Translations under genes and position numbers: made by a program | In this document: one piece after another, positions 2,533 to 64,000 of the stretch | How the letters are laid out: the number at the start of each line of letters is the position of its first letter | How positions within the stretch are numbered: the first letter of the stretch is position 1 | The notes under the pieces: generated by a model | What the model saw: the letters and a program-made list of their open reading frames with translations, nothing else | What the model was told of the DNA's origin: nothing | The model's database searches: none | DNA from: Deltaproteobacteria bacterium | GTDB taxonomy: Bacteria; Myxococcota; XYA12-FULL-58-9 | Reading direction: 5' to 3' | Length of the DNA stretch: 64,000 nt | NCBI GenBank assembly: GCA_016218825.1 | Contig: JACRCV010000056.1 | Coordinates: forward strand, 1-64,000

Positions 2533-2536
<4 letters not shown>

Positions 2537-3216
2537 GAACGCTCCTTCAGCAGGCCGCCCTCGAGCAGCAGGCGGCGCGGCATGCGATTGGCGAGGGACA
2601 TGTTGTGGGTCACGACGATCAGGGTCACGCCGCGGCTGCGGTTGAGCTCGAAGAGCAGCGTGTGGATCTCTTCGCCGGTCTTCTCGTCGAGGTTGCCGGT
2701 GACCTCGTCGGCCAGGAGCAGCGGCGGGTTCAAGACCAGAGCCCGCGCCAGCGCCACCCGTTGTTGCTCGCCGCCCGACAGCTCCCCAGGCCGGTGCTCG
2801 AGGCGGTGCGAAAGACCGACCTCGGCGAGCACCCTGGTCGCCGCGGTCTGGGCTTCGGCCCGCGGGGTGCGGCGGATCAGCGCCGGCATCATCACGTTCT
2901 CGAGGGCGGTGAACTCCGGGAGCAGGTGATGAAACTGAAACACGAAGCCGAGCTCGCGGTTGCGGAAGTCGGCGAGCTCGGCGCTCGAGAGCGCGAACAG
3001 ATCGCGGCCGTGGTAGTGGATGGTGCCCTTGTCCGGGGTGTCGAGGGTGCCGATCAAGTGCAACAGCGTGCTCTTGCCGGCGCCCGAGGCGCCGGTGACC
3101 GAGATCATGTCTCCCTGCATGAGGTCGAGCGAGGCGCCGGCCAAGACGTCGATCATCACCGGGCCTTTGGCGTACGCCTTGTGCAGGTTCTGGATCTGGA
3201 CGAAGCTAGCCGTCAC
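2533..3216 (-). CDS. lolD: Lipoprotein-releasing ABC transporter ATPase LolD
   Basis: This is the ATPase that powers extraction of outer-membrane lipoproteins from the inner membrane. Walker [10 protein letters not shown], signature LSGGE, Walker B LLLADE and the H-loop histidine (VVTHN) are all present. The usual ADEPTGNLD reads ADEVTGNLD here, a mild Pro-to-Val change. The ORF track extends upstream, but the GTG at 3216 gives 227 residues, the normal LolD size, and overlaps the lolC stop by 11 bases. The longer form would only add residues read out of frame from lolC. Its stop overlaps the bamA start. Confidence 0.93.
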
Positions 3217-4978
3217 GCAGCCCCTCGACCGGCGCCAGGCGAGAGCCACCCAAGGCCGGGAACACGGCGAAATCCCAAACAATGACGATGGCGGCAAACA
3301 CCACCAGCATCACGTCACCGGCGCCCACGTGCACCGGCAGAGAGTCGATATAGTAGACCTCGCCCGGAATCCCAAACCCAAAGCGCTTCAACAACAGCGC
3401 GGTGACCACCGCGGCGACGGCGCCAATCAACGTGCCGAAGGCGCCGACCAACATCCCCTGGACCAAGAACACCTTCATCACGCTGACGTCGGTGGCGCCC
3501 GTGGTCTTGAGGATGGCGATCTCCTTGCGTTTCTCGATGACCGACATCGTCAGGGTGTTGACGATCGAGAAGCTCGCCACCAAGATGATGAACGCCAGGA
3601 CCACGAACGCCACCACGCGCTCGAGCTTCAACGCCGCGAACAAGGTTTGGTTGCGACGCTTCCAGTCCAGCGCCTCGAGCATGCCGCTGCCCTCCGGATC
3701 GAGGGTCTTCAGGGCGACGGCGCCGATGGCGTCGGAGCGCTCCGGATCGGCGCCGGCGAGCTGCACGCCGGTCACCTCGTCGGCCCCGAGCTCGAAGAAC
3801 CGGCGCGCGGCGGGCAAGGTCGCGAACGCGTAACGGGCGTCGAACTCGTACATCTGGCTGTTGAAGATCGCCGCGACCCGGAAGTCGAGGCTCTTCGGCG
3901 CCGGCCCGACCGGCGTCAACACCTCCAACAACGGCGAGATGATCCGCACCCGATCCCCCACCTGGACGTTGAGGGTGCTCGCCATCTCCCGGCCGATCAC
4001 CAGGCCGGGCACCGGCGCCGGCGGCGCCAACCCGGTGTCGTCGTCGTCGGCGGCCGGCGGCGCTTGAGGTCGCAGCTCCGCTACCAGCGGCTCGAGGGAG
4101 CCCGTCGCGAGCTGAGTGAGGACGGTCAACACCGCGGGCGAGCGCACCGGATCCATGCCGTAGAGGATGCCGCCGGTGAAGTTGGACTGACTCGCGAGCG
4201 CGATCTCGCCGTCGATGGTCGGGGCGAACGCCGTCACCTCCGGCAGGTCCGCGAGCTGCCGCAGGCGCGCGCCGTCGAGCGCGAAGGGCAGGCTCTGGCG
4301 GTGGTGCACCACCACGTGGGCGTTGGCGCCGATGATCTTGCGCTGCAGATCGTCCTCGAAGCCCGAGAGCACCCCGAGCGAGATGATGACCAACCAGACC
4401 CCGAGGGTGACGCCGACCACCGAGATCGCGGTGACGGTCGACAACACCGTCGAGCTCTTCGACAGCAAGAAGCGGCGGCCGATCTTGCCCTCGTAGTCGA
4501 CGCGAGGCTCGAAGCGCCCCGCGCCCCACAGCAGATAGCCGAGCGAGGCGCCGAAGTACGCGAACAGCTCGAGCGCCGCCGGCACCACCAACAACGCGCG
4601 CAGCGGCGGCGCCGCTACTCCGGCCTTCGAGGCCGCCGCGAGCGCGAACAACACGCTCGCCAGGTACACCAGGCCCACCGCCAACAGCAGGTCGAGGCCC
4701 GGGAGCCGCCGGCTTTTCAACGCCGCGCCGAGGCCGGTCAGAGTGGCGGCGGTCACCACCCACCCCCAGAACAGCGGCTGCGAGCGCTCGAGGTCGAGGT
4801 CGAAGAGCGCGAACACCGCGAACAGCGCCAGACCGGCGATCGCCAGGGTCACGCCGGCGCCGGCGACGACGGCGAACGACACCCCGTGCCGACGCCAGTA
4901 GGTCCGAAAGCGCACGACAGCGAGCACCGCGCCGACGAGCACGCCCGAGACGATGTAGAACGACAGCGGCAGCGTCAC
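3206..4978 (-). CDS. lolC: Lipoprotein-releasing system permease LolC/LolE family, with N-terminal membrane extension
   Basis: This is the membrane subunit that works with LolD in lipoprotein release. The MacB/FtsX-type core starts near residue 161 ([13 protein letters not shown]), followed by the first core helix, a large periplasmic domain and three C-terminal helices. The GTG at 4978 overlaps the lysS stop as GTGA and gives 590 residues. Usual LolC/E proteins have about 400-415. The extra ~160 N-terminal residues hold about five hydrophobic segments (roughly 6-24, 34-57, 69-86, 95-117, 127-152). The 937-residue ORF in the track runs on upstream through lysS in another frame and is not the gene. 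No separate LolE is seen, so the complex may be homodimeric. Confidence 0.9.
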
Positions 4979-52058: not shown

Positions 52059-53930
52059 CTAGAACGCGAAGGTCGCCCGACCCCAGGCCAGCGAGCCCCC
52101 GGCCGCCGGATCCCCGAACTTGCTGTAGTCGGGGCCGAGCTGCAGCAGCGCGCCGGCGGCCAACGTCAAGCCGTCGCCGAAGCTGTACTCGAGCGCCGGG
52201 TAGAGCACCGCCGACCAGCCGGCGGCGCTGTAGAACGAGCGGTGCCGCCGCAGCCGGGCGCCGCCGTCCTCGTCCCACGAGGTCTCGGTGACGCCGCCCA
52301 GATCCCAGATCGAGAACAGCCGCAACAGGCCGCGGCCGTCGGCGAAGCGCACGTCGACGCCGACCACCGCGTAGTCGCCGATTCGATGCCGCAGCCGCTC
52401 CTCCGCGCACGCCGTGCCGTCCCGGTTGACGACGCAGATCTCGACCTGGGTCTGGTCGGCGCTGCTGCCGCTCGTCCGCACCGCGGCGCCGCCGTGAAAG
52501 AAATCGCCGGCGCCGAGCTCGTCGGGCATGCCGTGCACCCACATCAGGTTGGCGTAGACGTGACGGCCGAAGGAGTAGTCGATGCCGGCGACCCACTTGG
52601 CGAACGGCTTGGAGTCGAGCACCAGCGGCCGCTCGCCGTCCGGCAGCCGGTAGTCGTACTCGCCGGCCGGCCGGTTGAGCCCGAACAGCACCACTTCCCC
52701 TTGATCGATCCGCATCCGCCGTTGCTCCGGCACATAGAGCCCGACCTCGAGGCGGTAGCCGAACGGGTGGATGCCGCGCGAGATGAAGCCGAGGGGGTTG
52801 AGCTCGCCGGCGACGTTGAGTCCCACCACCTGCAGCCGCGGGAACTGCAGCACGACGTCGGTCGTCAGGGTGCCGGCGACACAGGCGGCGGCGTCGTTGG
52901 GATCGCAGCGCGCGTCGGCGATCTGGGTGATCCGGCTCTCGGCCGGCAGCGGGACGTCGCTGCGGCCGCGGTAGTACGACAGCGCCAGATCCTGCCCAAA
53001 GAGGCTGCCACCGACGCGCACCGCCCACGGCATGTTGGCGGGCGTGGTCGCCGGCAGCTGAAAGACCGCGCTCCGGACCACCGTCGGGTAACCGGCGCGG
53101 GCGGCGAGCTCACGTTCTGCCGCGAGGCGCCAGCGCAGCTCGTCGGCGACGAAAGGCAGTCGATCGACCGCGGTGATCCCGAGCGCTGCCGAGGCCGGCA
53201 ACACCGCGGGCTTGAACACCGGCACCAACACGCCGGAGAAGGACCAGGAGCCGGCCCCGTAGTCGAGCCGCACGATCTCGTTCGCCACCTGGCGACCGAA
53301 GAACAGCACGTTCTCGAGGTCGTTGGCGTTGACGTTGTTGGTCGGGTTGAACTGGTCGCCGACGCCCCATTGAACCACCTGTTGCCCGACGCGCAGATCG
53401 AGGTCCGGGAGCAGCAGATCGGTGACCTCGAGGTAGAGCGCGTGCGCCTGCAGCCGGTAGGGCGCGACCTCTTGATAGCGCGACAACGCCGCCAGGTCGC
53501 TTTGCGACCCGGCGATCCCGAGCCAGTCGAAGTCGACGTCACCGACGAAGGTGGCGCTGCCGGAGCCGGCGTGCAGCTTGAGGTTGAGCTTGTTCTCGTT
53601 GCGGCAGAACCCCTTCGCGAGCTCGGCGCGGTTGTAGAACGCCCCGCTGGTCTTGGCGCGCGTCCGATAGTGGGTCTCGCTCTGCACCGCGCCGCCGAGG
53701 TCGAGCTTCCCCCGCCCCGGGCTCTCGGGGCCGCGCGGCGATTCGTCCGCCTCGTCGCGATCATCTTGCCCCGGTGGCGAGCGTAGCGGCACGAACTGGG
53801 TCGGCGCCGCGAGCCGTGGATCGGTGGCGGCCTCGGCGTCCGCCGCGGCCGCGGCCTCCTGCGCCGCCGCCGGGGCCGCCGCTGTCAGCACCCCGGCCAA
53901 GGTCACCGCGGCGCGCCAATCGATGTACAT
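52059..53930 (-). CDS. DUF1302 family outer-membrane protein
   Basis: The 623-residue protein has a signal peptide (ends near AAAQ), an Ala/Asp/Pro-rich linker, and a long beta-strand-rich region ending in Phe (RATFAF), as outer-membrane barrels do. Local features such as DLRVGQQVVQWG and NPTNNVNANDLENV are typical of DUF1302. The ATG at 53930 has GAGG eight bases before it. It lies directly downstream of LolA-like and RND genes, suggesting an outer-membrane acceptor or channel for their cargo. Confidence 0.85.
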   Translation of the reverse strand: MYIDWRAAVTLAGVLTAAAPAAAQEAAAAADAEAATDPRLAAPTQFVPLRSPPGQDDRDEADESPRGPESPGRGKLDLGGAVQSETHYRTRAKTSGAFYNRAELAKGFCRNENKLNLKLHAGSGSATFVGDVDFDWLGIAGSQSDLAALSRYQEVAPYRLQAHALYLEVTDLLLPDLDLRVGQQVVQWGVGDQFNPTNNVNANDLENVLFFGRQVANEIVRLDYGAGSWSFSGVLVPVFKPAVLPASAALGITAVDRLPFVADELRWRLAAERELAARAGYPTVVRSAVFQLPATTPANMPWAVRVGGSLFGQDLALSYYRGRSDVPLPAESRITQIADARCDPNDAAACVAGTLTTDVVLQFPRLQVVGLNVAGELNPLGFISRGIHPFGYRLEVGLYVPEQRRMRIDQGEVVLFGLNRPAGEYDYRLPDGERPLVLDSKPFAKWVAGIDYSFGRHVYANLMWVHGMPDELGAGDFFHGGAAVRTSGSSADQTQVEICVVNRDGTACAEERLRHRIGDYAVVGVDVRFADGRGLLRLFSIWDLGGVTETSWDEDGGARLRRHRSFYSAAGWSAVLYPALEYSFGDGLTLAAGALLQLGPDYSKFGDPAAGGSLAWGRATFAF

Positions 53931-53939
53931 CACGGCACC

Positions 53940-54701
53940 TCACCCGCCCCGCTGCAGCGCCCGCACGGTGAACAGCGAATCGGGGACCCCGCGGTTCACC
54001 TGCCAGTCCTTGAGCAGCATGCGCGACTTGAGCTCGCCGCGGCTGTGGTCCACCATCTCCACGGCCCTCGGGGTGCAGAGCTTGCCCTGGCAGGTGAAGT
54101 CGGAGCGGGTCTCGGTCTTGGCGTTGACCCCGGCGTCATTGAAGTAGCGGATCTCGATCGGTTGGTGCAGATCCTTGCGCACGTCCACCTCGAGCCGCGG
54201 ATAGAGAAACGCTTGATCGGCCTTGCGCTCGAGCGTCAAGGTCAGGGTGGCGCCGTGGTCGGCCACCGCCGTGGCACGAAACACCTTGCCGAACACCGCG
54301 AGCGCGATCTCGTCGTGGTCCCAAGCCGAGCCCATGAAGCCCTGCTCCTTCACGTGGGTGGCGATCCGCCGGACCTTCCGGTAGGCGGGCAGGTAGATGT
54401 ACATCTGGTCGACGCCCAGCACCAAGACCCGGGTGCCCTTGACGTCGGCCGGCGCCAGGAACTCCACCCGCCGCCATGCGGTGCCCTTCACCGTGGCCTC
54501 GAAGGTCAGCCGCCGCTCGGCCTTGCCCGGCTCGTTGGTGACCATCTCCATCACCACGGTCTGGTCGCTCATGCCGCCGATGGTGGCGTCGACGGCGGCG
54601 AGCTCCTCGTCGGCGCTCGTCGCAGCAACGACCGGCGGCGACAGCAACAGCCCGCCGCAGGCAAAGAGCGTGGCGCGAAAGACGTCCTTGGACCTGATCA
54701 C
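53940..54701 (-). CDS. LolA-like outer-membrane lipoprotein-sorting family protein
   Basis: The 253-residue periplasmic protein has a signal peptide followed by a LolA/LolB-like single beta-sheet fold (EATVKGTAWRRVEFLAPADVKGTRVLVL, MYIYLPAYRKVRRI). It matches the LolA_like family found with RND exporters. The two C-terminal cysteines (FTCQGKLC) may pair. The GTG at 54701 has GGAGG five bases away. It lies between RND and DUF1302 genes and may carry a lipid or lipoprotein between them. Confidence 0.82.
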   Translation of the reverse strand: MIRSKDVFRATLFACGGLLLSPPVVAATSADEELAAVDATIGGMSDQTVVMEMVTNEPGKAERRLTFEATVKGTAWRRVEFLAPADVKGTRVLVLGVDQMYIYLPAYRKVRRIATHVKEQGFMGSAWDHDEIALAVFGKVFRATAVADHGATLTLTLERKADQAFLYPRLEVDVRKDLHQPIEIRYFNDAGVNAKTETRSDFTCQGKLCTPRAVEMVDHSRGELKSRMLLKDWQVNRGVPDSLFTVRALQRGG

Positions 54702-54710
54702 CGAGGCCTC

Positions 54711-57533
54711 CTATTTCCGTGGCGCAGGCTTGTGCGCGGCGGTGGTTCGCGGATCGAGCACGACGGCCGCGGCGCTGTCGGCCGCCGTCGCCCGGGTCGC
54801 CCCCAGGATTTCGTAACGCCGGCGACCAGCGAGCGCCGGCACCGCCAAGAAGGTCGCGAGCGCGGCCAACAACATCGAGGCCGCGGTCAGCCCGCCGATG
54901 TTCTGCAGCGGCTTGGCGTCGCCGAGAGTCAAGACCGAGAAGCCGGCCGCCACCATCACCGCGTTGGTCCAGACCCCGGGTCCGGCCGCGCAGCCGGCGT
55001 CGTGCGCGGCGTCGGCAGCGCTGCCGCCGGGCGGGGCGCGCCAGCTCGCGAGCAGGTGGATGGCGTAGTCGACCCCGGCGCCGATCACCAGGCTCGCCAG
55101 CATCGAGGTCCCGACGTCGAGGCGGATGCCGAAGACCCCCATGGCGCCGTAGACACACAACAGCGTCAGCACCGTCGGCGTCAGCGCCAGCAGCCCGACC
55201 CACAGCGAGCGGAACAGGGCCGCCATGATCAGCAAGACCAGCGCCGCCGACGCGATCAAGCTGACGATCTGATTGCGGCTGACGCTCTGCGACAAGCCGC
55301 GGTGCATCACCGGCAGCCCGTTGACCGCGATCGCCACCGGCGCGGCGCCGCCTGCCGCCGTGGCGCCGTCTTCGAGATCCAGCATCGCCTGGGTGACGTC
55401 GGCGGCGAAGCGCCCGACAGCGTCGGTAGCGGGCGCGGCCAGCCCGAGCGTCGACACCAGCTGGTCCCGGCGCCAGGCGGCCCGCGCCACCGCCCAGGTT
55501 TCACGCAGCGGGGTCGAAACCGAGAGCGCCAGATCCTCGGCGTCGCTCGGCGGCCGGGTCGGAGAGAGGCTCGCCGCCACCGTCGTCGTGAGCTCGGCAA
55601 CGGCCGTTCGGTCGCCGAGCGTCACCAGGGCCGAGGCCACCCGGGCGGCCTCGGCGTCCGGCAGCACGACCGCGTTCTCCTCCGAGCCGAGGAAACGGCG
55701 GAGCTCGGCTTCGACCACCGCCACGTCCGGCCGCGGCGTGCCGTGGTCGATCAGCGCTTGCAGCCGCTCCGGGCTCGCGCTCACCGTCAAGTGGTGTTGG
55801 TGCGCCAACGCCAACACCCTCCAGGCGACGTCACCGGCCGGATTCGACCCGGCCCCTGTCGCCCCCGCTTCGCTGGCGATCGCGTCGAGGCGCGCGAGGA
55901 CCGGCGCGACCTCGGCCGCCCGATCCGAGGCCAGCCGGATGTGGATCAGGCTGTGCGCGTGGTCGCGGGTGACGAACTGGTCGAGCACCGGGTCGCCCAT
56001 GAATGAATAGAGCACGCTCACCTGGGCCGCGGTCTCGGGGATCCGCGCCTGTCCGGCCAACACCGCGTTCGCAGTCGCGACCGCTTGGCCGATGTGGCTG
56101 ACCCCGGTGACCCCGGGCTCGAGGGCCGCCCGGTCGGCGATGCGCCGCACCAGCCGGAGGTTCGCGGGCTCGCGCATGTCGCCGGAGATCTCGATGAAGG
56201 CGAACTGGCTACCGCCGAAGTGGGCGCGCATGAACGCCTCGGCCAGGGCGGGCGGACTGCCGGCGTTGAAGAACGCGCCGGCGTCGACGCTCGAATCCAG
56301 GCGGGTCGAGGCCGCCGCCCCGAGAACGGCGACGAGCGCCAAGGCGGCGCCGAGCCCGAGCCGATGCCGTGCCGCGCCCCGGGTCAGTCGCCCGATCGCC
56401 GCCGCCACCGCGGTGGAGCTCGAGGGGTGGTGGTGAACCTTCAACAGCGACGCCAGCGCCGGCACGAAGGTCAACGACAGGCCCATCGCCAGGAAGATGC
56501 CGACGCCGGCGAACAGGCCGAAGATCCGGAGCGGGTGCACGTCCATCCCCAGGTAGGAGGCGAGGCTGACGACGGTGGTGAGCCCCGAGCCGATGATGAC
56601 CGGCCCGGTCTGGTGGATGGCCTGGGTCAGTGACGTCGTCGGCTCCAGGCGCTCGTTCAGGGCGTAATAGCGCGCCAGCAGGTGCACCCCGTAGGCGCTG
56701 CCGATCGCGAACAGCACCACCGGCATCCCCGCGAGCACGATGTTGAACCGGACGCCGAGAGCGGCCATCAACCCCAAGGTCATCGCGATGCTGAGGGTGG
56801 TGGCGACGAGGACGATCGAGATCCCCACCGGGTCCCGGAACGTCACCATCAAGATCAGGATCACCGCGAGCACCGCCCACGGCGTGAGCAGCAACAGGTC
56901 GTGCTGGGTGGTGTTGAAGACGTAGGTCGACACGAACGGATCGCCGGCCCAGTAGAGGGTCTCGGTCGGAAAGGCCTTGGTCACCACCGCCTGGATCTGC
57001 GCCGCCACCGCCCTGAGCGGCGCGCCGGCCGCGAGCATCGCGACGATCGCGACCGCGCGACCGTCGGCGGCCACCAGGTTGCCGACCACCTGGTCGCGGC
57101 TCATCACCTTGGTCCGGAGCGCCTGTTCGTCGACGGCGTTGGCCGGCAGCCGGTCGACGAGGGCGGTGGTGACGACGCCGCCGCGGCCGGGGTCCGGGGT
57201 GAAGTCGCCGGTGTTGGCGAGCGACAAGACGTGGTTGAGAGACCCGAGGCCCTTGAGCTCCTCGGTCGCCTGCTGCAGCCGCTTCAGGAACGAGGCCGCG
57301 AACGGGTCATCGGTCTCGATGCCGACGAGCGCGATCTCCGTGGTGCCGAAGCGGCGGGAGAGCTCGGTGAACTTGGCGACCGCGAGGTTGCCGCGCGGCA
57401 AGAACTCCAGCAGGTCGTCGGACTGCTGCAGACGGGTGGCCTGGAACGCCGACGCGACGCCCAGGCCGACGGTGACTACGACGATCCACACCGCGGCGGC
57501 GCGGTTCGCGATCAGACGCGCGAGCAGATCCAT
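54711..57533 (-). CDS. RND superfamily (MMPL-type) transporter
   Basis: The 940-residue inner-membrane exporter has the RND duplicated plan: helix 1 at residues 12-30, a large periplasmic loop, a block of five helices (about 220-370), a second half beginning near 395, another loop, and a final helix block. No outer-membrane channel or adaptor of the TolC/MFP type is present. Instead LolA-like and DUF1302 genes follow within 10 bases each. Hydrophobic cargo is likely. Confidence 0.9.
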   Translation of the reverse strand: MDLLARLIANRAAAVWIVVVTVGLGVASAFQATRLQQSDDLLEFLPRGNLAVAKFTELSRRFGTTEIALVGIETDDPFAASFLKRLQQATEELKGLGSLNHVLSLANTGDFTPDPGRGGVVTTALVDRLPANAVDEQALRTKVMSRDQVVGNLVAADGRAVAIVAMLAAGAPLRAVAAQIQAVVTKAFPTETLYWAGDPFVSTYVFNTTQHDLLLLTPWAVLAVILILMVTFRDPVGISIVLVATTLSIAMTLGLMAALGVRFNIVLAGMPVVLFAIGSAYGVHLLARYYALNERLEPTTSLTQAIHQTGPVIIGSGLTTVVSLASYLGMDVHPLRIFGLFAGVGIFLAMGLSLTFVPALASLLKVHHHPSSSTAVAAAIGRLTRGAARHRLGLGAALALVAVLGAAASTRLDSSVDAGAFFNAGSPPALAEAFMRAHFGGSQFAFIEISGDMREPANLRLVRRIADRAALEPGVTGVSHIGQAVATANAVLAGQARIPETAAQVSVLYSFMGDPVLDQFVTRDHAHSLIHIRLASDRAAEVAPVLARLDAIASEAGATGAGSNPAGDVAWRVLALAHQHHLTVSASPERLQALIDHGTPRPDVAVVEAELRRFLGSEENAVVLPDAEAARVASALVTLGDRTAVAELTTTVAASLSPTRPPSDAEDLALSVSTPLRETWAVARAAWRRDQLVSTLGLAAPATDAVGRFAADVTQAMLDLEDGATAAGGAAPVAIAVNGLPVMHRGLSQSVSRNQIVSLIASAALVLLIMAALFRSLWVGLLALTPTVLTLLCVYGAMGVFGIRLDVGTSMLASLVIGAGVDYAIHLLASWRAPPGGSAADAAHDAGCAAGPGVWTNAVMVAAGFSVLTLGDAKPLQNIGGLTAASMLLAALATFLAVPALAGRRRYEILGATRATAADSAAAVVLDPRTTAAHKPAPRK

Positions 57534-57578
57534 GGCGGAGGGAGGCAGACGTCGGCGTCGACGGTCTCGACCCCGGGG

Positions 57579-58565
57579 CTACAGCCCGGAGCGCTCGACG
57601 AGCTCTTGCACCGCCTCGCCGATGAGGCGCGGCAGCGTCGACGGCCCGCCGTCGGCGATCTTGTTGGCGCGCGCCAGGACCTTGGTCTGGCGGACATCGA
57701 AGAGCTTCAACGTCAGGACCATCGAGCCCTCGAGCTTGGCGACGTTGCCCGCCGCGAGGTAGTCGACCCCGAGGGCGTTGCCGAGCTCGGCGACGCAGGT
57801 GGCGTCGTCGCAGCCCACCGCCTCTTTGACCTTCTCGAAGCCGATCATCGAGTTGATGTCGTCGGGTCCGATCGCCTCGAAGCCGGCGTTCTGCAGCTCG
57901 GTCAGGAAGACCTCGTCCATGATCAGCGCCACCTCGTCCGGCACCTCCTTGGACTTCACCTTCATCGGAATGGCGGCGCACTTGGTGCCCGGGCTCTTCA
58001 GCTTGCGCCGCGGGCCCTGGTACTGCTGCACCGACGACGACCCGGGCGCCGCCGGCTGCGAGTAGCTGCCCATGCCCGTCGCCGCGACCGTCGAGCCCGG
58101 AGGTGCGGCGAACGTGGTGTTGACGTTGCCCGGTCCGGTCTTCGGCTGACCGACCGCCATCGGCTGGATGTCGACGCGCATTCCGCCGGAGTAGACGCCG
58201 TCGAAGCGCACGTAGAACCCGGGAGCGTTCACGAAGCCCGGGCCGTTGGTGCCGAAGCTCACCTTCTGCTTGGCGCGCGGCGAGATCCGCACCATCTCAC
58301 CCTTGCCGCTGCGGTAGTGGTCGACGCCGTCAGCCCCGACCGCCGCGATTTGATTGCGGTTCACGAGGACGTCCTGACCCAGGTCGTTGTAGACCATCAA
58401 CGCCACCTCGACGGTGGCGCCCTTGTTGCGCGCGGTCAGGAGCTCGATGCGCACGCCGTTGCCGGCGGTGGGCGGCGCCGCCATCACTTTGCCGCGGCGG
58501 CAGGCGGCGTGCGGGAGTGCGACACCGAGGATCAAGGCCAACGTGAGAATCGCGCGCTTGTTCAT
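57579..58565 (-). CDS. Exported protein with CsgG/TolB-like C-terminal domain
   Basis: The ATG at 58565 gives a signal peptide with Cys at the expected position (LPHAAC), so it may be a lipoprotein. Residues ~35-140 look like a beta-sandwich; a Gly/Ser/Pro linker follows. Residues ~196-315 resemble the CsgG/TolB-N-like domain of the PEGA protein at 6613-8355, sharing the C...CVAELGNALGVDYLAAGNVAKLEG-type pattern. It starts 45 bases upstream of the RND gene, so it may be part of that system. Confidence 0.78.
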   Translation of the reverse strand: MNKRAILTLALILGVALPHAACRRGKVMAAPPTAGNGVRIELLTARNKGATVEVALMVYNDLGQDVLVNRNQIAAVGADGVDHYRSGKGEMVRISPRAKQKVSFGTNGPGFVNAPGFYVRFDGVYSGGMRVDIQPMAVGQPKTGPGNVNTTFAAPPGSTVAATGMGSYSQPAAPGSSSVQQYQGPRRKLKSPGTKCAAIPMKVKSKEVPDEVALIMDEVFLTELQNAGFEAIGPDDINSMIGFEKVKEAVGCDDATCVAELGNALGVDYLAAGNVAKLEGSMVLTLKLFDVRQTKVLARANKIADGGPSTLPRLIGEAVQELVERSGL

Positions 58566-58676
58566 GGAGTGCCCCATAGCTCGTGATACCGACGTGAGTC
58601 AACGACGCCGAATTCACCGCGCCGCCTCGCCCTCGCCCTGCCCTTCTTGGGCCGGCCCGCCGCCGGAGCCTCGACC
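58566..58676. promoter_or_regulatory. Intergenic region upstream of the RND operon
   Basis: This 111-bp gap lies between the giant Cys-rich gene stop and the CsgG-like gene. It must hold the RND-operon promoter, or be a terminator region for the upstream gene, but I see no clear motif besides GC-rich inverted repeats (GGCCGGCCCGCCGCCGG). Confidence 0.3.
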
Positions 58677-61600
58677 TCAGAAGATCGTGCACTCGCCGCC
58701 GAAGCAGACGAGGGGCGCGCAGCAGTCGCTGTCCCGGACGCAGTCACCGCAGCGGTGGTCGACGCACGATTGGCTCGGGCACTGGGAGCACAACGAGCAC
58801 TCGTAGCAACCCGAGGTGTCGAAGCCGTCGCAGGTCGGCTTGCAGACCAGCCGGCCGCCGGCGCCAAAGCCGCGGGACGCGCAATCGGCGCCCGCCAGAT
58901 CCTGGCCATCGCAGAGCTCGGCGCCGTTCTTCTTGCCGTCGCCGCAGTACTCGCACTGCGACACGTCGAGGGTGCAGTCGGTGTTGCAGCCGATGGTGCC
59001 GCTCGTGAACCCCTGGCCGATGTTCTGGCAGGTGCGACCCCCGAGCGCGGTGCCGTCACACAGCTCGCCGGCGTCCAAGGCGCCGTTGCCGCAGCTCGCG
59101 ACGTTGCAGCCCGAGAGGTCGAAGCTGCAGTCGGCCTTGCAGCCGAGTCCGGTGACCGACGGAAAGCCCAGGCTGCCGCAGGTGGCCGAGCCGCAGTCGG
59201 CGCTGACGCCACACGGGCCGACGCCGTCGCAGGCCTCGACGCCGTTCTTCGTGCCGTCACCGCAGCGATAGCAGCCCGAGGTGTCGAGCCTGCAGGTCGC
59301 GACCTCGCAGCCGAGCGTGCCGCCGGCGAAGTCCCCGGGCTCGTTGTGGATGCCGTTGCCGTTCAGGTCGGTGCAGGTCCGGCCGCCGAGCGACGCGCCG
59401 TCACACTGCTCACCCCCGGCCGAGGTCTGGACGATGCCGTCGCCGCAGTAGGCGGCGCGGCGGCAGCTCGAGGTGCAGGTGCCGTAGGCGCCGTTGTTGA
59501 CCCCGTCGTCGCAGGCCTCGCCGTCCGCGAGGTCCAGGTTCCCGTCACCGCAATAGGCGGCGTGCTCACAGGTCGCGGTGCAGCCGCCGTAGCTGCCGTC
59601 GTTGACGCCGTCGTCGCAGGTCTCGCCGAAGACGCTCTGGACCACGCCGTCACCGCAGATCGCGGGCAGCGTGCAGTCCGGCTTGCAGCCGTCGTACGCC
59701 CCGGTGTTGTTGCCGGTGCCGAGGTCGCACTGCTCGTAGGGTGCGTCGGTGTTGGCGTCGCCGCAGAACGCGGTCCGGCTGCAGTCGGGGTTGCAGGTGC
59801 CGTAGGCGCCGTTGTTACGCCCGTCGTCACACTGCTCGCCGTTCGCCGGCTGCACCGCGCTGTCGCCGCAGCGCGGCCCGAGCTGACAGTCACTCTCGCA
59901 GCCGCCGTAGCCGCCGGTGTTGCGGCCGGCGCCGCGGTCACACTGCTCGAAGGGCGCGGTGGTGACGCCGTCGCCGCACCAGGGCGCCAGCGTGCAGGTG
60001 CCGTTACAGCCGCCGTAGGCGCCGGTGTTGTTGCCGGGGCCGAGGTCGCACTGCTCACCGACGTACGGGTTGACGACGCCGTCGCCGCAGACGGTGGGCA
60101 ACGAGCAGTCGGGCATGCACGCGGTGCCGTCGTTGACGCCGTCGTCGCACTCCTCGCCGAAGGCGATGTCGATGAAGAGGTCGCCGCAACGTGGCGGGAA
60201 GGTGCAAGCGGCGCTGCAGGTGTTGTAGCCGCCGTTGTTGACGCCGTCGTCGCACTCCTCGCCGCTGTTGGCGACGCCGTCGCCGCAGAAGTCGGCGCGG
60301 CTGCAATCCGGGTTGCAGCCACCGTAGGCGCCGGTGTTCTGACCCGGGCCCAGATCGCACTGCTCGTAGAGCGGTTGGAGCGCGCCGTCGCCGCAGCGCG
60401 GCGCCGCCGCCCGACAATCGGTGCTGCAGGAGCCGTAGCCGCCGTTGTTGACGCCGTCGTCGCAGACCTCGTTGTAGCCCGCCTGAACGACGCCGTCGCC
60501 GCAGCGCGCGGGGAAGCGACAGTCGGCCTTGCAGGCGTTGTAGGCGCCGGTGTTCAACGCCGTTCCCAGATCGCACTGCTCGCCATAGGTCGGCTGCACC
60601 CGCTGGTCGCCGCAGGCCGGCGCCGAGGTGCAGTTCGGGTTGCAGCCGCCGTAGCCGCCGGTGTTGTTGCCCGGCCCGAGGTCGCACTGCTCGCCGACGA
60701 AGGCGTTGACGATGCCGTCGCCGCACACCGCCGGCAGCTTACAGTCGGAGAGGCAACCGACGCCGTTGTTGACGCCGTCGTCGCACTGCTCGCCGAAGAC
60801 CGCCTGGACGACGTTGTCGCCGCAGCGCTCCGGGTAGCTGCAGTCCGCCTCGCAGGTGTTGTAGGCGCCGGTGTTGGCGCCGTCGTCGCACTGCTCCGGC
60901 GGCGCCTGCACGCCGCCGTCGCCGCAGACCCCTCCCGAGGTGCAGTCGCTGTTGCAGCCGCCGTAGGCGCCGGTGTTGAGGGCGGTGCCGAGGTCGCACA
61001 CCTCATAGAGCGGCTGCAGCACGGCGTCGCCGCAACGCTCGGCGTAGGCGCGGCAATCGAGGCTGCAGGAGCCGTAGCCGCCGTTGTTGACGCCGTCGTC
61101 GCAGAGCTCGCCCTCGCCGCCCTGCAGCAGAGCGTCGCCGCAGCGCGGCGGGAACCGGCAATCGGCCTTGCAGGTGTTGTAGAGGCCGGTGTTCGCCGCG
61201 GTGCCCAGATCGCACTGCTCGCCGGCCGCGATCTGCACGACTTGGTCGCCGCAGCGCGGCGCCAGGGTGCAGTTGGCGTTGCAGCCGCCGTAGCTGCCGG
61301 TGTTGTTACCGGGGCCGAGGTCGCACTGCTCGCCGGCGAAGGGGTTGACGATGCCGTCACCGCAGCTCACCGGCAGGCGGCAGTCGCCGAGGCAGCCGGC
61401 GGTGCCGTCACACTGCTCACCGAAGGCCGCCTGGACCGTACCGTCGCCGCAGGCAGGCGCGTTGCCGCTGCAGTCGATCAGGCACGAGCCGTAGGTGCCG
61501 TCGTTCTTGCCGTCGTCGCAGGTCTCACCGTCCCCGCCCTGCACGACGCCGTCGCCGCAGCGCGGCCCGAGGCCACAGGTCGGCGAGCAGCCGCCATAGG

Positions 61601-64000
61601 AGTCGTCGTTGGCGCCGTCGTCACACAGCTCGAACGGGGTGTCGATGTAGGCGTCGCCGCAACGGGCCGCGAGGCTGCAGTTGGGGTTGCAGGTGCCGTA
61701 GTTGCCGTTGTTGGTGCCGTTGTCGCACGCCTCGCCCGGATCCGGGAGCCCGTCGCCGCAGCGCGCCGGGTAGGTGCAGTCGGCGTTGCAGGTGTCGTAC
61801 AGGCCGGTGTTGCCCGCGGTCCCGAGGTCGCACTGCTCGCCGTTGCCGACCTGGACGATCTGATCGCCGCAGCGGGTCGGATAGGTGCAGTTGGCGTTGC
61901 AGGTGTCGTACAGACCGGTGTTGGCCGCGGTCCCTAGGTCGCACTGCTCGCCCAGCGCCGGGTCGACGAAACCGTCGCCGCAGGTCGCGGTGCTGGTGCA
62001 GTTGGCGGCGCAGCGGTTCGGCGGCAGGCCGGTGTTGCCGGCGACGCCGAAGTCGCAGTCCTCGTAGCTCGGATCGCGCACCGCGTCACCACAGACGTTG
62101 GCGCGGGCGAGACAACCCGGCATGCAGGTGCCGTAGGCGCCGTCGTTGATGCCGTCGTCGCAGACCTCGGGGCCGTTCAGGGCGCCGTCGCCGCAGCGCG
62201 GCCCCAGACCTCGGCAATCGACCGCGCAGTTGCCGGCGGCGCCGTAGCTGCCGTTCGCCGCGCCGCTGTCGCAGACCTCGCCGAGCGCGCCCTGGGTGTA
62301 GCCGTCGCCGCAGCGGGCGCTCTGACAGCCGGTCGTGCACAGGCCGGTGTTGCTGTTGCTGACCCCGAGGTCGCATTGCTCGCCGAGATCGACGATGTGG
62401 TTGCCGCAAGCCGGCGCCCGGCAGGCGCTGTTGCAGGTGGCGGTGTTCCTGACCGTGCATTGGTGCAACGGCGTCGCGGCGCAGTCGGTCGCCTCCGTCG
62501 GCACCAGGCAGGCCGTGACGTCGTCGTCGCAGGTGCCACCCAGGTCGCAGGTCTCCGGCGCCTGGACCACGCCGTCGCCGCAGTTGAGGAGCTGGCAGGT
62601 GGCGCTGCAGTTGGCGCCCGGCGGATCGCACTGCTCGGGCCAGGTGACGAGGCCGTCGCCGCACACCGTTTCGATCGTGCACGTGGCGCTGCAGCCGTCA
62701 CCGCTGCGCGCCGTACACGGCAGCGCCGCGCCGCAGTCGGCGGTCGCCGCGTCCACGCTGCAGGTCGCGTTGTCGGTGCACCGGCCGGCGTCGTCGCACT
62801 GCTCGGTGCCTTGGACGATGCCGTTGCCGCAGTGGCCGGTGCAGGTGGCGGTGCCGGTGTTGAGGAAGCCGGCCAAGGTCAGCATGTAGTTGGACTGCGT
62901 CGTGTGCCGTTCGGCGTTGAAGAAGTCGATGGCGTACAACCCCTTCTCGTAGATGCCGAAGCGGTTGTCGGTGATGATCTTCAGGGTCGGATCGACGGCG
63001 CTCGACAGCGTCACCGACCCGCCCGCGGGCCCGTGCACCCCACCGATGTCGACCGCCAGCACCCCGTTGATGTACACCCAGACGTCGTCGTCGCCGGTGA
63101 AGCTCAGGGTCTCGCCGCCGCGGTACTGGAAGTAGGTGTGGAACTCGCTGGTGAAATGGAAGTCCCGCGTCCGGCCGCGGGTGTTGCCGAAGCCGTCGGC
63201 GACGCAGTTGCCGCCGTGCGCGGTCGCGCAATCGGAGTTCTGGGTGCAGAGGAAGCCGTCGAGGCATCGGCCGCCGACGCAGCTGCCCGCCCCCCCGTGG
63301 GTCCGGCAGTCGGAGTTCTGAGCGCAGACGAAGTTGTCGGCGCAGCGGCTCGCGATGCAGAGCGCGGCGTCGTGGGTCAGGGCGCAGTCCGAGTTCTGGA
63401 CGCAGATGTAGCCGTCGGCGCAACGGTTGAGCACGAAGAAGCCACCGTCGTTGCCCTGCGAGAAGTCCGCGGAGTCGTAGCGGTAGGTTCGGCCGGAGGC
63501 GTCGAGATCGACGCGCTGCCGGACGTGGATCGTCCGCTGCACCGTTTGGTTGACGCCGGCGGTGTCGTGATACCAGGGGGCAAAGCTGGTGGCGCTGGCG
63601 ATGCACGCCGTCGGGCCGCTGCAGGTGTTCGGGGTGCAGTCGGCGTTCACCGCGCACGCGGTGTTGGTGACGGTGCAGCGGAACGGCGCGTAGGTCGGCG
63701 TGCTGTCGGCGGCGGTCCGTGGCTGCACCAGCCCGGTGTAGTTGCCGCAGATCCCGGTCTGCTCGAAGTCGGGGTGGCCGTAATAGAAGCAGCGGGCGCT
63801 GTCGCAGCGGGTGACGCAGCGCTCCAGGCACCGGCGCCGGCACTGCTGGTCACCGCCGTGGCCGGTGCATTGGCCGGCGGGGTTGGTCGAGCAGTTGAGC
63901 CCGTCGGCACACTCGCGCTGTCCGGAGGTGCAGTCGGCGTCCTGGGTGCAGGCGGTCGTCATGTCGCCGCAGAACCGCCCCACCGCCTTGCCGAAGCAGT
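58677..64000 (-). CDS. Giant Cys-rich secreted protein: fibro-slime domain plus 35 DUF4215-type repeats (5' end beyond window)
   Basis: The frame is open to the window edge (CFGKAVGRFCGDM precedes the track Met), so the true start and signal lie outside. The visible 1770+ residues hold an N-terminal Cys-rich part and a fibro-slime/PA14-related beta-domain (SFTGDDDVWVYINGVLAVDIGG, YAIDFFNAERHTTQSNY). I then count 35 CGDG...GEQCDDG...YGxCxxxC modules of the DUF4215 Myxococcus type, and a final Cys cluster. The modules probably form calcium- and disulfide-stabilised rods. It is likely a surface adhesin or matrix protein. Confidence 0.88.
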   Translation of the reverse strand, partial: CFGKAVGRFCGDMTTACTQDADCTSGQRECADGLNCSTNPAGQCTGHGGDQQCRRRCLERCVTRCDSARCFYYGHPDFEQTGICGNYTGLVQPRTAADSTPTYAPFRCTVTNTACAVNADCTPNTCSGPTACIASATSFAPWYHDTAGVNQTVQRTIHVRQRVDLDASGRTYRYDSADFSQGNDGGFFVLNRCADGYICVQNSDCALTHDAALCIASRCADNFVCAQNSDCRTHGGAGSCVGGRCLDGFLCTQNSDCATAHGGNCVADGFGNTRGRTRDFHFTSEFHTYFQYRGGETLSFTGDDDVWVYINGVLAVDIGGVHGPAGGSVTLSSAVDPTLKIITDNRFGIYEKGLYAIDFFNAERHTTQSNYMLTLAGFLNTGTATCTGHCGNGIVQGTEQCDDAGRCTDNATCSVDAATADCGAALPCTARSGDGCSATCTIETVCGDGLVTWPEQCDPPGANCSATCQLLNCGDGVVQAPETCDLGGTCDDDVTACLVPTEATDCAATPLHQCTVRNTATCNSACRAPACGNHIVDLGEQCDLGVSNSNTGLCTTGCQSARCGDGYTQGALGEVCDSGAANGSYGAAGNCAVDCRGLGPRCGDGALNGPEVCDDGINDGAYGTCMPGCLARANVCGDAVRDPSYEDCDFGVAGNTGLPPNRCAANCTSTATCGDGFVDPALGEQCDLGTAANTGLYDTCNANCTYPTRCGDQIVQVGNGEQCDLGTAGNTGLYDTCNADCTYPARCGDGLPDPGEACDNGTNNGNYGTCNPNCSLAARCGDAYIDTPFELCDDGANDDSYGGCSPTCGLGPRCGDGVVQGGDGETCDDGKNDGTYGSCLIDCSGNAPACGDGTVQAAFGEQCDGTAGCLGDCRLPVSCGDGIVNPFAGEQCDLGPGNNTGSYGGCNANCTLAPRCGDQVVQIAAGEQCDLGTAANTGLYNTCKADCRFPPRCGDALLQGGEGELCDDGVNNGGYGSCSLDCRAYAERCGDAVLQPLYEVCDLGTALNTGAYGGCNSDCTSGGVCGDGGVQAPPEQCDDGANTGAYNTCEADCSYPERCGDNVVQAVFGEQCDDGVNNGVGCLSDCKLPAVCGDGIVNAFVGEQCDLGPGNNTGGYGGCNPNCTSAPACGDQRVQPTYGEQCDLGTALNTGAYNACKADCRFPARCGDGVVQAGYNEVCDDGVNNGGYGSCSTDCRAAAPRCGDGALQPLYEQCDLGPGQNTGAYGGCNPDCSRADFCGDGVANSGEECDDGVNNGGYNTCSAACTFPPRCGDLFIDIAFGEECDDGVNDGTACMPDCSLPTVCGDGVVNPYVGEQCDLGPGNNTGAYGGCNGTCTLAPWCGDGVTTAPFEQCDRGAGRNTGGYGGCESDCQLGPRCGDSAVQPANGEQCDDGRNNGAYGTCNPDCSRTAFCGDANTDAPYEQCDLGTGNNTGAYDGCKPDCTLPAICGDGVVQSVFGETCDDGVNDGSYGGCTATCEHAAYCGDGNLDLADGEACDDGVNNGAYGTCTSSCRRAAYCGDGIVQTSAGGEQCDGASLGGRTCTDLNGNGIHNEPGDFAGGTLGCEVATCRLDTSGCYRCGDGTKNGVEACDGVGPCGVSADCGSATCGSLGFPSVTGLGCKADCSFDLSGCNVASCGNGALDAGELCDGTALGGRTCQNIGQGFTSGTIGCNTDCTLDVSQCEYCGDGKKNGAELCDGQDLAGADCASRGFGAGGRLVCKPTCDGFDTSGCYECSLCSQCPSQSCVDHRCGDCVRDSDCCAPLVCFGGECTIF
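60070..61345 (-). repeat. Higher-order six-module repeat (636-639 bp period)
   Basis: Within the giant gene, the module CGDGIVN...GEQCDLGPGNNTG recurs starting near 61345, 60706 and 60070 (spacing 639 and 636 bp, six modules each). Each time it is preceded by the short GCLxDCxLP module. Blocks 14-19 and 20-25 match position by position, showing duplication of a six-module unit. Confidence 0.8.

Follow-up and report, generated by a model that had tools for sequence, protein, structure and literature searches.

The transport systems closest to the one described here, which we have analysed in Deltaproteobacteria bacterium (Myxococcota) in a stretch of 64,000 nucleotides (hereafter the window; GenBank assembly GCA_016218825.1, contig JACRCV010000056.1, positions 1 to 64,000), are AmeABCD, the MMPL/LolA-like/DUF1302 operons of Bacteroidota and Fusobacteriota, BstABC, HpnN and the Lol pathway. 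The AmeABCD cassette of Castellaniella defragrans, which carries out efflux of apolar monoterpenes and protects against them (PMC6394551), joins an HAE-3 RND pump, a periplasmic protein of the LolA superfamily and a DUF1302 barrel. BstABC of Methylococcus capsulatus (NCBIfam NF045600-602) also combines an RND pump with a periplasmic carrier and an outer-membrane component, and BstA, BstB and BstC all bind 4-methylsterols (PMC10942540). The window holds a module of this general kind, in which an HAE-3/MMPL RND pump is linked to a LolA-superfamily protein and a DUF1302-like barrel. We put at roughly 60% the probability that this triad exports a hydrophobic lipid or terpenoid-like small molecule to the outer membrane, lipoproteins not being its cargo. 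It is a known kind of export triad; what is new is the variant described in Myxococcota and its testable tie to BstABC.

The preliminary description, made from the sequence alone, had proposed a unit of four co-directional genes, and four such open reading frames do lie on the minus strand at 52059-58577. In the order of transcription, with gaps of 45, 9 and 6 bp, they are:

57579-58577, minus strand: probable lipoprotein (the 'CsgG-like' gene), accessory; 332 amino acids, with an N-terminal Ig-like domain and a TolB_N/DUF2380/CsgG-superfamily-like C-terminal domain
54711-57533, minus strand: HAE-3/MMPL-type RND pump of the inner membrane; 940 amino acids
53940-54701, minus strand: LolA-like periplasmic carrier; 253 amino acids, signal peptide seen by eye
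52059-53933, minus strand: DUF1302-like outer-membrane beta-barrel; 624 amino acids, terminal Phe

Neither an adaptor nor TolC was seen among the neighbouring open reading frames, as had been noted before. The core is a three-gene triad from which the 'CsgG-like' gene is excluded, because outside this genome that gene was seen at the triad in the sister family alone (L058 in genome G002; genomes, contigs and loci carry our own G, C and L labels), where just its N-terminal lipoprotein domain is present. Hence the four-gene unit survives as the conserved RND, LolA-like and barrel genes, and the suggestion that the 'CsgG-like' partner was added in a particular lineage agrees with its survival only in the sister family, as that single domain.

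Among 58 relatives from the phylum, orthologs of the RND pump (E < 1e-160) and of the LolA-like carrier (E < 1e-50) occur in an identical set of 13 genomes, and the barrel was found in all 13, contig breaks splitting the triad in three of them (G009, G018, G033). When named genomes were searched with the barrel alignment, 58 loci came back, nearly all from Myxococcota or 'Deltaproteobacteria' and including Polyangium and Minicystis rosea; all three genes are present at 38 of the 58, and 36 of these have them on the same strand in RND-LolA-barrel order (counted by eye). Polyangium fumosum and Minicystis rosea are both among the triad carriers. A scan of genome contigs with a single LolA-like sequence, and a plasmid search with a homologous barrel, gave no matches. 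In annotated plasmid records, the three genes lie together in Haliovirga abyssi as DUF1302-MMPL-LolA-like, the order MMPL-LolA-like-DUF1302 of the window recurs in Prevotella nigrescens, and a record from Ilyobacter has a LolA-like gene, an unassigned protein and an RND gene. (Three Acinetobacter baumannii records of 3.7-4.1 Mb that are listed as plasmids, NZ_CP077849, NZ_CP104448 and NZ_CP064203, look like chromosomes.) The linkage of the triad genes is far beyond chance, and the RND-LolA-like-DUF1302 kind is widespread and already visible in annotation. The linkage had been expected to extend beyond this strain, and our neighbourhood survey finds it in Myxococcota, Bacteroidota and Fusobacteriota. 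That the four genes are no more than chance neighbours might be argued from the failure of the 'CsgG-like' gene to be conserved with the rest; for the triad this is refuted by the identical distribution of RND and LolA-like genes, by the barrel in the same genomes and by its presence in three phyla, and we consider the chance of it close to nil. The triad is patchy, being absent even from a relative of the same genus (G001, 86% complete). A paralogous module was seen in addition at L054, L055 and L057 (genomes G018, G009 and G041), a divergent second triad of about 30% identity that runs LolA-barrel-RND.

The pump, identified before as an RND pump, is of the MMPL type and probably of the HAE-3 class. 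It matches PF03176 (6e-30) and the sterol-sensing domain (1.7e-10), and its best NCBIfam model is TIGR00921 for HAE-3 (185 bits, E 1.6e-54; curated cut-off of 351.9 not reached), with the HpnN model TIGR03480 at 78.8 bits (cut-off 751.85) and the BstA model NF045600 at 38 bits (cut-off 1400). Its nearest class is HAE-3, followed by HpnN/BstA and by NPC1, which is its sole sequence relative in the PDB (1.5e-5). Judged by these matches, the pump belongs among the lipid and hydrophobe exporters. When the window pump and 14 orthologs were compared with three BstA proteins, all 15 triad pumps had lost the Asp of the Asp-Tyr pair in the fourth transmembrane segment (TM4; GSAYGVH in the window) and kept that of TM10 (GVDYAIH), whereas the BstA proteins have Asp in both. 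Should these pumps couple to protons in the way other RND pumps do, the triad subfamily would use a single Asp.

The periplasmic LolA-like fold of the preliminary description is borne out by a match of the carrier to PF17131 at 3.9e-29, its match to DUF1329 reaching an E of only 0.013; its solved structural relatives include PDB 3bk5 (5e-10). The carrier alignment has a conserved C204/C209 pair, possibly a disulfide, and the signature LPA-Y-RKVRRIA-H-QGFMG. A second, tandem LolA-like gene was observed at L070 (11005-11679) and L124 (560-1300), following the barrel in G024/L070 with 38% identity to the window carrier. As for the barrel, AlphaFold2 predicts a beta-barrel (pLDDT 81, pTM 0.79), for which Foldseek gives AlgE as the best PDB match (E 2.6e-11), and the alignments have a conserved signature, GQQVV.WG.GDQFNPTNN; a PDB search with the barrel profile returned nothing useful. 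Its assignment to DUF1302 is weak for the protein itself and better supported by its homologs: PF06980 is matched by 20 of 28 barrel homologs (best 3.3e-8), while the window protein scores 13.5 bits (E 0.037) against a gathering cut-off of 23.2.

In Myxococcota the triad is often adjacent to, and inherited with, homologs of BstABC. A convergent BstC-BstB-BstA operon follows the barrel at L060, L069, L072 and L105. At L060/L069 its proteins score 1180/1080 (BstA), 332/343 (BstB) and 263/280 (BstC) bits with the NCBIfam models, all somewhat under the equivalog cut-offs, and at L072 and L105 it was recognised by tblastn with 48-53% identity. Elsewhere, the gene just upstream of the triad RND is BstB-like in another family (L071 and L076, the latter with a 4-nt overlap), and at L090 it encodes a BstC-like TPR protein. 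A BstB homolog (>100 bits) is present in 12 of the 13 triad genomes and in 1 of the 45 others (Fisher p 1.9e-10; p 0.002 when collapsed to families), and among 174 genomes in 10 of 11 triad carriers and 4 of 163 others. The genome to which the window belongs carries a BstA-like gene (487 bits) paired with a BstB-like one (157 bits) on another contig, C106, at its truncated end, and the same-genus relative that lacks the triad also lacks BstB. The two systems differ in their parts: the carrier BstB is a binding protein of the PhnD type, BstC is a lipoprotein of the TPR type, and the window RND lacks the TM4 Asp and does not match the BstA model at its cut-off. Since BstB-like and BstC-like genes were recruited directly before the triad RND in other lineages, the triad and BstABC may be two arms of one Myxococcota lipid-trafficking system that share periplasmic carriers and handle a sterol-like or undescribed polycyclic lipid, which the hosts, often without cyclases, would take up or modify; this is a possibility that we raise tentatively, holding it to be less probable than its opposite. 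Separately, BstC-like genes scoring 70-89 bits were seen in two other families of Myxococcota on the same contig as a squalene/hopene-type cyclase and no more than about 12 kb from it (G060:C60, G059:C175, G058:C116, G065:C126, G066:C206, G020:C6, G075:C1 and G068:C1), which hints at Bst-type transport beside triterpenoid synthesis there.

Might the triad instead be an efflux pump for toxic hydrophobic compounds such as terpenes, solvents or aromatic metabolites, with no role in building the envelope? This is what AmeABCD would suggest, since mutants without it tolerate monoterpenes less well and show a higher net influx of Nile Red (PMC6394551), and both the patchy distribution of the triad and the two-component regulators upstream of it at L069, L070, L080, L105 and L111 are consistent with such a role. 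The likeness to AmeABCD is partial, however. AmeB is a DUF1329 protein of 451 amino acids and the window carrier a PF17131 protein of 253, and the triad has neither AmeC (COG4447) nor any other fourth conserved cassette gene. Its neighbours also differ, no catabolic genes having been recognised nearby and the linkage being to BstABC instead. We therefore regard efflux of toxic compounds as unlikely. The regulators at the five loci just named, and at L078, are a PAS/GAF-like sensor kinase and a response regulator (by eye), placed ahead of the triad and usually preceded by a peptidase-T-like gene; this pair is a possible regulator of the module.

The triads of the other phyla raise another alternative. 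The operons of Prevotella nigrescens (L138) and Haliovirga abyssi (L134) contain the same three families, with barrels that match PF06980 and, in Prevotella, the same gene order. Compared with the triad of the window, the Bacteroidota and Fusobacteriota triads are shorter (RND 773-805 vs 940 amino acids, barrel 412-435 vs 624) and their RNDs have 21-23% identity to that of the window. Low iron raises the homologous MMPL/LolA-like operons of Porphyromonas/Prevotella 13- to 223-fold (PMC10434189), and under limited hemin they rank with the most strongly raised genes (PMC10470040), from which one could suppose that the triad exports a metal- or haem-related hydrophobic metabolite. The Prevotella triad, whose relatives' operons are iron-regulated, has ABC/TetR neighbours that differ from those in Myxococcota, where no iron-related neighbour was recognised at the loci, and we give this explanation little credence.

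The preliminary description had seen in these genes a second, Lol-like route through the envelope. For lipoproteins, the RND pump would replace LolCDE, the LolA-like protein would be the chaperone and the barrel the surface acceptor, and such a route has in its favour the LolA superfamily of the carrier and the predicted place of the barrel at the outer membrane, together with the many predicted lipoproteins of Myxococcota. The LolA-type fold is, however, where the likeness to the Lol pathway (LolA, LolCDE, LolB) stops, since the triad has an RND pump in place of the ABC release complex and a barrel in place of LolB. Moreover, the classical set is already there. LolD and LolC/E lie at window positions 2536-4978, beside BamA, and although the observation that LolA is missing holds within the window, two LolA genes that match PF03548 are present elsewhere in the genome, on contigs C49 and C32; the window carrier was not among the matches of that model in the genome search. 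The triad is sporadic and dispensable across relatives, being missing even within the genus, which makes a general lipoprotein route unlikely; further, the pump is similar to lipid exporters, and the triad is linked to homologs of sterol-transport genes. In view of this evidence we set the lipoprotein route aside as highly improbable.

If the triad is instead an exporter of hydrophobic molecules, how might it work? The HAE-3-type RND pump, proton-driven by homology, would lift a hydrophobic small molecule or lipid from the inner membrane, the soluble LolA-fold carrier would shield it on its way through the periplasm, and the DUF1302-like barrel would receive it at the outer membrane, to be inserted there or released. 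Family, linkage and the analogy with HpnN, BstA and AmeD all point to a lipid or a small hydrophobic molecule as the cargo. HpnN shares the HAE-3 RND fold and class of the pump; it differs in working without dedicated periplasmic or outer-membrane partners (PMC6394551). The Myxococcota triad may work in the same lipid-handling setting as BstABC, and because it is inherited with BstABC and often adjacent to it, the cargo is most likely polycyclic or terpenoid-like, or another unusual lipid. It probably differs between lineages, given the different contexts of AmeABCD (monoterpenes), of the Porphyromonas/Prevotella operons (iron/hemin) and of Thalassolituus, where an MMPL-LolA protein and an adjacent porin are induced on C28 alkane (PMC6304351). 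In the literature searched, no report names this system in Myxococcus.

Several observations weigh against export of such a lipid or against its tie to BstABC. The co-occurrence counts are phylogenetically non-independent, 9 of the 13 triad genomes belonging to one family, and the neighbourhood of triad and BstABC within the f8 family could be synteny inherited from a single event. G002 (92% complete) has the triad without BstB, and no Bst neighbours were seen at the Polyangium and Minicystis triads. The window RND reaches no NCBIfam subfamily cut-off, the window barrel falls under that of PF06980, and some barrel homologs stand alone (for example L075, L083 and L084). Lastly, a PF13243 search of our own genome gave no match to a squalene/hopene cyclase, the enzyme that a comparison with HpnN would call for. 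Such cyclases are present in triad genomes G039, G024, G033 and G023 and absent from several others; a self-made hopanoid or sterol is therefore unlikely as a general cargo, and we rejected the cyclase as a predictor of the triad or a marker of its cargo. Immediate neighbours of the triad were also checked for a biosynthetic gene from which the cargo could be told; an aminotransferase, an OlsE-like hydroxylase, peptidases and others each turned up once or at few loci, with no consistent signal.

As for the 'CsgG-like' protein, which we rejected as a fourth core component as it is not conserved with the triad, its label stands only as a weak, superfamily-level resemblance of the C-terminal domain. 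Profile searches of that domain gave TolB_N, DUF2380, FlgO and CsgG, all marginal, so its placement is vague; PF03783 (CsgG) did not match it and matched two of six homologs marginally (best 0.021). The AlphaFold model of the protein has a mean pLDDT of 47, its N-terminal beta domain being the usable part, and a PDB search returned nothing useful. The family of the C-terminal domain has 32 matches in our own genome and many in relatives, and in G002 its closest copy (59% identical) is on a PEGA-like lipoprotein (by eye) on another contig. This domain (window 57579-58037, with a GCDDATC motif) is thus massively expanded, and appears fused to varied lipoprotein N-termini, such as the PEGA-like one. 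Just upstream of the four genes, at 58677-63983, the window encodes a DUF4215-repeat protein of at least 1768 amino acids with a PA14-like stretch, not seen at the triad elsewhere.

How unusual lipids and other hydrophobic molecules are moved to the Gram-negative outer membrane is poorly known. Linkage to and co-inheritance with BstABC, for which sterol binding has been shown, gives the widespread RND-LolA-like-DUF1302 modules a testable cargo class, and cultured carriers of the triad exist in Polyangium and Minicystis rosea.

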